Source: an uncultured Burkholderiales bacterium (GTDB lineage Bacteria; Pseudomonadota; Gammaproteobacteria; Burkholderiales; Thiobacillaceae). Taken from it: a DNA stretch of 64,000 bases. The stretch spans positions 1 to 64,000 of the forward strand of contig CALEDT010000029.1 in NCBI GenBank assembly GCA_937949525.1, given 5' to 3'. This document shows, in pieces, positions 24,290 through 26,572 of the stretch (position 1 is its first letter; every line of letters begins with the position of its first letter). Below the pieces are notes generated by a model. The model was not told where the DNA came from. It searched no databases and was given only the letters and a program-made list of their open reading frames with translations. The translations under genes and the position numbers were made by a program.

Positions 24290-24325
24290 ACGTGGCCGGC
24301 GACGATGCTCGGCCTCGAGTTGCAA

Positions 24326-24508
24326 TCTCCCTGCGGCGTACGCGATGGTTGCGTATTCTTTGAACCGATAAGCGTAAGCTTAGGCTGTGGAACATCGATC
24401 GCTGGTGTGCGCGTGGCATCCGTCCATGTACCCGAAGCGATCTGACCATGGCCACTCTTGAACCCTGGGTTCAAGATTGCGGCCAGGACGGCGTTCGCGG
24501 GGAGTCCC
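24326..24508 (+). ncRNA. ssrS: 6S RNA (approximate ends)
   Basis: Position between zapA and 5-FCL gene; tgaaccgataagcg near the 5' side, cttgaaccctgggttcaag hairpin, and closing stem ctccctgcggcg...cgttcgcggggag resemble known gammaproteobacterial 6S RNA. Confidence 0.85.
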
Positions 24509-24513
24509 CTCCT

Positions 24514-25128
24514 TTGGACCTCGATGACAAGGCGGCACTGCGGCGCATGCTGCGTGCGCGGCGCGGCAGCGTCGATGCCCAGTCGCGCCGGCGTGCGGCA
24601 TGCGCGCTGGTCAAACGCGCGCTGCACCACCGCCTGATTGCACATGGTCGGCGCGTTGGTTTCTACATGCCGGCAAAAGCCGAGATCGACATTCTGCCGC
24701 TGCTGGCGCGCGCGCGCGCCATGGGCGCGGAATGCTTCCTGCCGGTGTTGGCGGCGCGCGACGGCAGGCGCCTGTGGTTTGCGCGGCTCGGAGCGCGTCC
24801 CCGCTGGACCGTCAACCGCTATGGCATCGCCGAACCGGTACACCCACGCGCACGCCGGTTGCGCGCCCGTCAGCTCGACACGCTGTTCCTGCCGCTGCTG
24901 GGGTTCGACCGCGCAGGTTGGCGCATCGGCATGGGTGGCGGATATTACGACACGAGCCTGGCCTATCTGCTCGGACGACAGCACTGGCGCAAACCACGCC
25001 TGATCGGTGTGGCCTTTGCCACCCAGGAAATCCCAGCCGCGCCGCGTGACCCTTGGGACGTGCCGCTGGACGGCGTGCTGACCGAACGCGAATTCGTGCG
25101 CGCCCGTCGCCGCGGTCAATATCGGTAA
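24514..25128 (+). CDS. 5-formyltetrahydrofolate cyclo-ligase (YgfA-like)
   Basis: RVGFYMPAKAEIDILPLL, LPLLGFDRAGWRIGMGGGYYDTSLAYL; start uncertain: the ATG at 24448 lies inside the 6S RNA, TTG at 24514 follows a ggggag RBS. Confidence 0.88.
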   Translation: MDLDDKAALRRMLRARRGSVDAQSRRRAACALVKRALHHRLIAHGRRVGFYMPAKAEIDILPLLARARAMGAECFLPVLAARDGRRLWFARLGARPRWTVNRYGIAEPVHPRARRLRARQLDTLFLPLLGFDRAGWRIGMGGGYYDTSLAYLLGRQHWRKPRLIGVAFATQEIPAAPRDPWDVPLDGVLTEREFVRARRRGQYR

Positions 25129-25778
25129 GCGCCGCGCTGCGCCAGCCAGGGGTTGTCGGCCGGATTCAACGTCGGCAGCCGCAACCAAGTGTCGGCGGCC
25201 GTTTGCCGCGGCGTTTCGCCCGCGCCCCGCGACGGGCTGGCGACCGCGTAACCGACATTGAGCCAGCGCCGGGTCTTGTCCGGATCACCCAGGCGCATCC
25301 ACACGTTGTAGTGGAAGCCTGGATCGAGGCCGGCCAGCATCCATTGCAGATAGAGCCAGGGATCGACGAACTCCGCCCAGTTGCGCACGGTGGCCGGGTC
25401 GAGCATGCGACCGAGCAAGTGCGGGTAGGTCTCCGGGGTGAGTGCCACCGCGGCCAGCGCGGTCATGAACTGCGGCTCGGTCACGGCATCCAGCCAGTCG
25501 GCGAACAGCCGCGGATGCTTCAGTGCCAGGCCATTGCGCGTGGGATCCAGCATGCGCTTCAGCCAGGCCTCACTGCCCTGCGGCGCGACTTCCAGCGCCG
25601 GCGCAGCGGAACCGTTGGGCCAGACCAAGCGTTCCACCACTTGACCGTCGGGCAGCAGCACGCGCTTGACCGAGTACATCGCGCCGCGCGACTCCGTGAC
25701 CTGCGGCGTCTGTGCGCAGGTGTGGGTGCCAAGACCCAGCATACACACGAATAGCAATGTCACTTCGAGGCGGGACAT
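25116..25778 (-). CDS. Exported (D/T/E)P-repeat protein of unknown function
   Basis: Signal-like MSRLEVTLLFVCMLGLGTHTCAQ; repeated units ...LDPATVRNWAEFV/DPWLYLQWMLAGL/DPGFHYNVWMRLG/DPDKTRRWLNVGY. Confidence 0.75.
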   Translation of the reverse strand: MSRLEVTLLFVCMLGLGTHTCAQTPQVTESRGAMYSVKRVLLPDGQVVERLVWPNGSAAPALEVAPQGSEAWLKRMLDPTRNGLALKHPRLFADWLDAVTEPQFMTALAAVALTPETYPHLLGRMLDPATVRNWAEFVDPWLYLQWMLAGLDPGFHYNVWMRLGDPDKTRRWLNVGYAVASPSRGAGETPRQTAADTWLRLPTLNPADNPWLAQRGAYRY

Positions 25779-25842
25779 GACCGAGCAACCGTACCGATGG
25801 GAATGATTTATATGCTGAAATACTAACATGCAAAAACAAAAT

Positions 25843-25875
25843 AAAAAGGGCGGAACCGCGGTTCCGCCCTTTTTC
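25843..25875 (-). terminator. Strong intrinsic terminator downstream of the NP-repeat gene
   Basis: aaaaagggcggaaccgcggttccgcccttttt, a long perfect palindrome. Confidence 0.85.
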
Positions 25876-25912
25876 TGCCCGGCAGTGCGCCGGGACGTCT
25901 GCGCCGATGCGA

Positions 25913-26572
25913 TTACTTGGCGGGAGCAACCGGCACGGGGATGAAGCCGGCGAACGGGTTGGGGATGGTGCCGTAGGTGGCCGGATTCAGGAAACCACCC
26001 CAGGTACCGTAGGTCTTGGGATCGGCAGCAGCGCCGGCCCACTGGGTGTACAGATTGGGGTTCAGCGGCGCCATCATCAGGTTCAGGTTGGCCGGGTTGA
26101 TCGGAGCCAGCGCCCAGTTCATGTACAGGTTGGGGTTCAGCGGCGCCATCATCAGTTGCAGCGCGCGCGGATCAACCGGGGAAGCCAGCCACTTCATGTA
26201 CAGGTTGGGGTTGAGCATCGGCGCCATGGCGGCGGTATAGAAGTTGGGATCCATGGAAGCGGCCAGCCACTTCATGTACATGTTGGGATCCAGGAACGCG
26301 GCGTAGGCTTTCAGGATGTCAGGAGACATGCCGGCCTGGGCCATGCGGGTGTAGGTAGCGGGATCCAGGCTGCGCTGCATCATGATCAGCGCGGTGGCGG
26401 GATCCATCAGGTTGGTCATGGCCTGCACGGCGGCCTTGGGATCCTGAGCGATCTCAGCAGCTTTGACCGGGTCCAGCAGGGCGGCGGCGGTGGATTCCGG
26501 CGTGGCGGCGCCTTGGGCAAAAGCGGTGGGGGCGACCAAGGCCAGGATCAGGGCGGAAAGTTTCTTCATCAT
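25913..26572 (-). CDS. Exported NP/DP-repeat protein of unknown function
   Basis: Signal peptide MMKKLSALILALVAPTAFAQ; ~14 units of about 12-13 residues each beginning (D/N)P, e.g. NPNLYMKWLASPV/DPRALQLMMAPL/NPNLYMNWALAPI/NPANLNLMMAPL. Confidence 0.85.
   Translation of the reverse strand: MMKKLSALILALVAPTAFAQGAATPESTAAALLDPVKAAEIAQDPKAAVQAMTNLMDPATALIMMQRSLDPATYTRMAQAGMSPDILKAYAAFLDPNMYMKWLAASMDPNFYTAAMAPMLNPNLYMKWLASPVDPRALQLMMAPLNPNLYMNWALAPINPANLNLMMAPLNPNLYTQWAGAAADPKTYGTWGGFLNPATYGTIPNPFAGFIPVPVAPAK
26044..26290 (-). repeat. ~75-bp tandem coding repeats inside the NP-repeat gene
   Basis: tgtacag(a/g)ttggggtt recurs at about 26047, 26122 and 26197 (75-bp period), and tgtacatgttgggat at 26275. 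Confidence 0.85.

Follow-up and report, generated by a model that had tools for sequence, protein, structure and literature searches.

Two adjacent genes on the minus strand of a 64,000-nucleotide stretch of DNA from an uncultured Thiobacillaceae bacterium (the window; contig CALEDT010000029.1) encode probably exported proteins, P1 and P2, built from short units that open with Asp-Pro or Asn-Pro, and the question raised by this locus is to which family they belong and what such a chain of units would do outside the cytoplasm. The first-pass annotation of this DNA had reported the two open reading frames, about 14 (D/N)P units in P1, more diverged units of the same type in P2 and a 75-bp repeat in the DNA spanning two units. 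All of these were recovered in our analysis, as the following features show.

25913..26572, minus strand: P1, predicted exported (D/N)P helix-repeat protein, 219 aa (ORF, repeat statistics, AlphaFold, orthologues)
26516..26572, minus strand: probable signal peptide of P1, MMKKLSALILALVAPTAFA (sequence inspection; the hydrophobic N-terminus is conserved in the family alignment)
25985..26473, minus strand: repeat domain of P1, units mostly of 12-13 residues, each opening with D/N-P
26037..26186, minus strand: 75-bp DNA repeat, equal to 25 residues or two units, in two copies that are 72% identical
25843..25874, minus strand: perfect inverted repeat of 16+16 nt with a T tail, between P1 and P2
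25116..25778, minus strand: P2, diverged family member, 220 aa, with fewer units and a conserved C-terminal NPWL...YRY
25260..25556, minus strand: segment of P2 matching the P1 repeats (E 1.2e-7)

The mature part of P1 carries 14 DP/NP dipeptides, and 10 of these have another at +12 or +13, while 20,000 shuffles of P1 gave a mean of 0.08 such pairs and a maximum of 3. P2 has 7 dipeptides and 3 pairs at this spacing, a number never attained in shuffles. The DNA repeat in the P1 gene was found by two methods, as a spacing of 75 and as a TRF period of 75 with 2.3 copies. P1 and P2 are homologous, since a genome search with P1 retrieved P2 (E 1.2e-7) and phmmer aligned the two at 33 bits (E 4e-9). 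We took ATG 25778 as the start of P2, the mechanically called frame opening further upstream at a GTG; from this start the N-terminus of P2, MSRLEVTLLFVCMLGLGTHTCA, resembles by inspection a Sec signal peptide, as does MMKKLSALILALVAPTAFA of P1. P2-type proteins also share a V-x3-DG-x-V region, predicted to form a hairpin, in addition to the NPWL...YRY at their C-terminus. The inverted repeat between the two genes is a probable intrinsic terminator, and P2 is therefore probably a separate transcription unit; as terminator-like sites were no more numerous than in shuffles (1 found against 1.2 expected), a count that is weak by itself, this reading rests on the perfect 16-bp arms.

The family is apparently undescribed, in agreement with the first-pass annotation, which had recognised no characterised family. 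Neither P1 nor P2 scored above cut-off against Pfam and NCBIfam or matched any PDB sequence, and we found no description of the family in the literature on such repeats beside DUF302 or in sulfur globules. A match to phage coat GP8 (E 7.7) and matches to MatP and TetR among family members were dismissed as noise. The AlphaFold model of P1, predicted from an alignment of 20 relatives, is all-helical (mean pLDDT 80.7, pTM 0.68; pLDDT 85-92 across residues 21-180) and consists of a row of short helices, one per unit and mostly 11-12 residues long, nearly all of which start at D/N-P. The proline-capped short helices proposed earlier are thus borne out for P1 at the level of a confident model; as a whole they may form either of the two arrangements suggested in the first-pass annotation, a solenoid or a surface coat. 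The prediction for P2 was weak (pLDDT 63, pTM 0.39), a hairpin followed by about nine short helices. In Foldseek, the P1 model had no match at E <0.001 among PDB and viral models (best E 2.0, TM 0.15), and no solved structure of the known helical solenoids (TPR, armadillo, HEAT) matched its fold; the D/N-P single-helix repeat is of structural interest as no solved fold was matched.

A family-wide profile, built from 881 units of 13 residues and 352 units of 12, gives the chemistry of the 13-residue unit. Positions 1, 3, 7 and 10 are polar, and large hydrophobic, aromatic or Met residues occupy positions 4, 5, 8, 9, 12 and 13; position 8 is often W or M, and position 5 often Y or F. Charged residues make up 10.5% of mature P1 as against 22.5% of the neighbouring LivK. 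Family members, probably exported through Sec, would then have a body of successive short amphipathic helices, each with Asp-Pro or Asn-Pro as its N-cap, and we infer that outside the cytoplasm these helices make up a scaffold whose large Met/aromatic-rich face binds a hydrophobic partner.

The distribution of the family bears on what this partner may be. Thiobacillaceae are typically sulfur-oxidising, and 52 of the 118 sampled genomes of this family, including 23/23 of the host genus, carry members, the remaining 66 having none; among the named records, relatives are present in Thiobacillus, Hydrogenophilales bacteria and Parasulfuritortus cantonensis, the last a cultivated carrier with homologues of both P1 and P2 (L068). 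Outside the host family we found two carriers (G300 and G438) among 398 genomes of the order, seven more among 369 of the class and one of another class (G956) among 279 of a phylum sample. Beyond the host's own family, the divergent relatives are spread over seven families of its class and reach one further class. Phage and plasmid collections contained no relatives, so that nothing points to an origin from mobile elements or phages. The survey of taxa and neighbourhoods that the first-pass annotation had called for thus placed carriers in two classes and, moreover, several relatives inside sulfur-oxidation clusters.

L217, L218 and L224 (Thiobacillaceae): SoxY, SoxZ, exported rhodanese, DUF302, family member, cytochrome c and flavocytochrome c sulfide dehydrogenase (neighbours in L224 named from Pfam matches)
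L184 (Thiobacillaceae): FccB-FAM-SoxY-SoxZ, FAM being the family member; L181 is arranged identically as far as the contig end
L138 and L139 (G300, G438): YeeE-type Sulf_transp, D/N-P repeat protein, DUF302
L153 (G517): YeeE, family member, two further N-P repeat proteins, DUF302, SoxZ, SoxY
L246 and L247 (G956, another class): YeeE-DsrE2-FadL-type porins-FAM-DUF302, and a further FAM beside an exported rhodanese

These clusters are of several different arrangements and come from two classes. The relatives within them in Thiobacillaceae are about 40-50% identical to P1, those of G300, G438, G517 and G956 being more distant. In G956 the further family member, away from the DUF302 arrangement, lies about 5 kb from aprBA. 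The Met-rich proteins of G300 and G438 are less surely homologous to P1 than the other relatives, because the comparison is based on repetitive sequence; their homology is supported by the neighbours that they share with L153 and L246. It has been noted that sox clusters without soxCD can contain DUF302 proteins (PMC5037610), although in T. thioparus the DUF302 genes lie outside the sox operon (PMC5248467). Two observations were made alongside: the exported rhodanese-like proteins of L217, L218, L224 and L247:6479-7162, from two classes, share a conserved SRPCPPFCIQPM stretch, and the two further exported proteins beside the family member at L153:10078-11501 have a related N-P-rich repeat (NPATYMQWMNPAAY-like).

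SoxZ was present in 8/8 family-positive genomes of the class sample, the host included, compared with 197/369 overall; as SoxZ is common in this sample, the chance of such a result is about 1%, or about 2% when 6 taxonomic families are counted, and the evidence is modest. G300 and G438 also have SoxZ, which brings the carriers tested to 10/10 (the host and nine outside its family). In a tree of 127 members the P1 clade, the sox-cluster clade and a distant sulfur-linked clade fell into one set (SH-aLRT 95), the P2 clade lying apart and nearer the OmpA group described below, although branches are long, the search was quick and the deep joins are unsure.

Taken with the unit profile and the low charge of P1, the clusters, the SoxZ count and this grouping lead us to propose, tentatively and at somewhat under even chances, that members of the family act in the periplasm as hydrophobic scaffolds of helices, to which zero-valent sulfur is bound or which coat it. 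The partner would most likely be S8 or polysulfane made by Sox and sulfide dehydrogenase; in the periplasm the scaffold would disperse, coat or tether this sulfur, and the same pool might be acted on by DUF302, exported rhodanese, YeeE and DsrE2. The first-pass annotation proposed no biological role, and the link to sulfur oxidation is new relative to it. A precedent is offered by SgpA-SgpD of Allochromatium vinosum, Sec-exported, hydrophobic or repetitive sulfur globule proteins, SgpD having regularly spaced proline of the P-X2-P type and its gene being a separate transcription unit away from the sulfur operons; in purple sulfur bacteria the hydrophobic globule proteins coat the sulfur (PMC10386293). 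By description, the only level at which they were compared, P1 and P2 resemble these proteins in hydrophobic or repetitive sequence, regularly spaced proline (as in SgpD) and sulfur-oxidising hosts, would share Sec export if their signal-peptide-like N-termini act as such, and like sgpD have genes outside sulfur operons, but the D/N-P unit of P1 spans 12-13 residues and differs from the spacing in SgpD. Outside purple sulfur bacteria, little is understood of how water-insoluble sulfur is held and handed over in the periplasm when Sox is incomplete; this exported repeat family, which is present in several copies and has members in sox/fcc/YeeE/DUF302 clusters, supplies named, testable candidates for sulfur handling.

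Against a role in sulfur stand the 66 genomes of a typically sulfur-oxidising family that have no member, and the fact that most loci, that of P1 included, do not adjoin sulfur genes. Neither P1 nor P2 has sulfur genes next to it, and a sulfur role for these two would follow from homology to their relatives. A Liv-type (LivH-bearing) ABC transporter cluster adjoins 21/31 P1-type loci, P1 itself among them, and a second family member lies alongside in 16/31. We did not adopt the transporter as the partner of P1, taking the synteny as weak since other members lie elsewhere; a Liv-like cluster beside the member in G547 has another orientation and was treated as a possible coincidence. One orthogroup adjoins mla phospholipid-transport genes in 40 loci (L133 and 39 others). 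The genome search found seven family loci in the host, an eighth match (E 0.4) being discarded as DnaJ, and none of the seven adjoins sox/fcc/YeeE/DUF302 genes. Besides P1 and P2 they are as follows, the neighbours on C59, C41 and C9 being named by reading the sequences.

Contig C51: paralogue adjoining the mla operon
Contig C59: paralogue between a cytochrome and a ferric-iron-type ABC transporter
Contig C41: paralogue near NfeD/stomatin-like genes
Contig C9: paralogue near rnf-like genes
Contig C1 (L005:1393-2844, G000): OmpA-domain paralogue, with D/N-P repeats, a proline-rich linker and a C-terminal PF00691 (E 5.9e-19)

Sets of paralogues resembling that of the host occur across the genus, with 4-11 copies per genome in most carriers, and long open frames like that of the OmpA-domain paralogue recur there as well. 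This paralogue shares PF00691 with OmpA-like peptidoglycan-binding proteins, and its N-terminal part is D/N-P repeat and not beta-barrel; the domain is absent from P1 and P2. We argued that if the family were simply a structural coat or spacer on the outer membrane or peptidoglycan, held by the OmpA-domain paralogue and having no specific sulfur link, then the anchor and its recurrence, the copy number and the mla neighbourhood would all be accounted for, but a generic coat is not expected in sulfur clusters of several arrangements in two classes, and we regard this explanation as unlikely. Under the sulfur-scaffold proposal the same paralogue would tie the scaffold to peptidoglycan. That proposal can be extended: exported proteins of single-helix repeats would be a new class that provides the protein interface with elemental sulfur in Thiobacillaceae and further sulfur-oxidising bacteria, and paralogues would have become specialised, some for sulfur clusters, others for lipid transport at the outer membrane or for anchoring to peptidoglycan. 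We consider this extension doubtful.

The hydrophobic partner might also be a protein or a lipid. The STI1/DP domains of Sti1/HOP, Sgt2 and ubiquilin consist of five short amphipathic helices with a Met-rich hydrophobic groove (PMC8010706), and the P1 family is like them in its short amphipathic helices, often D/N-P-opened and Met-rich, with a large hydrophobic face; short amphipathic helices with D/N-P caps are present in P1 by the AlphaFold model and the unit profile. STI1/DP domains are eukaryotic, cytosolic and of five helices, whereas the P1 family has 10-24 units in a row, and the likeness is in helix style only. A periplasmic holdase would be the counterpart of what STI1/DP domains are in the eukaryotic cytosol, its capped Met-rich helices offering flexible hydrophobic grooves to outer-membrane proteins, lipids or transmembrane segments. 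It would suit the orthogroup beside mla and the OmpA-domain paralogue, and the Met-rich G438 relative matches Pfam UBQLN1 (E 7e-14) and RPAP3_C (E 2.7e-6). These matches may, however, be compositional, the protein being 30% Met, and STI1 or ubiquilin models matched no member of the 20-protein family alignment, to which P1 belongs. As a holdase would also leave the SoxYZ/DUF302/YeeE clusters unexplained, we consider it improbable. Because the STI1 profile fails and the Sgp proteins were compared by description only, we call the family possibly globule- or hydrophobe-binding-protein-like, and not a member of either group.

The high Met content of the G300 and G438 relatives (22-30%) would also suit a sacrificial oxidant sink or a metal-binding protein. 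MrpX, a Met-rich periplasmic peptide, works with its methionine sulfoxide reductase in this way, and the most extreme relatives are like it in being exported and Met-rich. The family differs from MrpX in that Met is not conserved, falling to 1.4-9% in host members whereas W, Y and D/N-P stay, and in reading the neighbours we noticed no methionine sulfoxide reductase. Met shares its unit positions with Leu and further hydrophobic residues, and a Met sink or metal-binding protein is in our judgement very improbable. Elsewhere in the window, a 6S/SsrS RNA (24325-24507, plus strand, 69.2 bits) lies just upstream of a 5-formyltetrahydrofolate cyclo-ligase-like gene.
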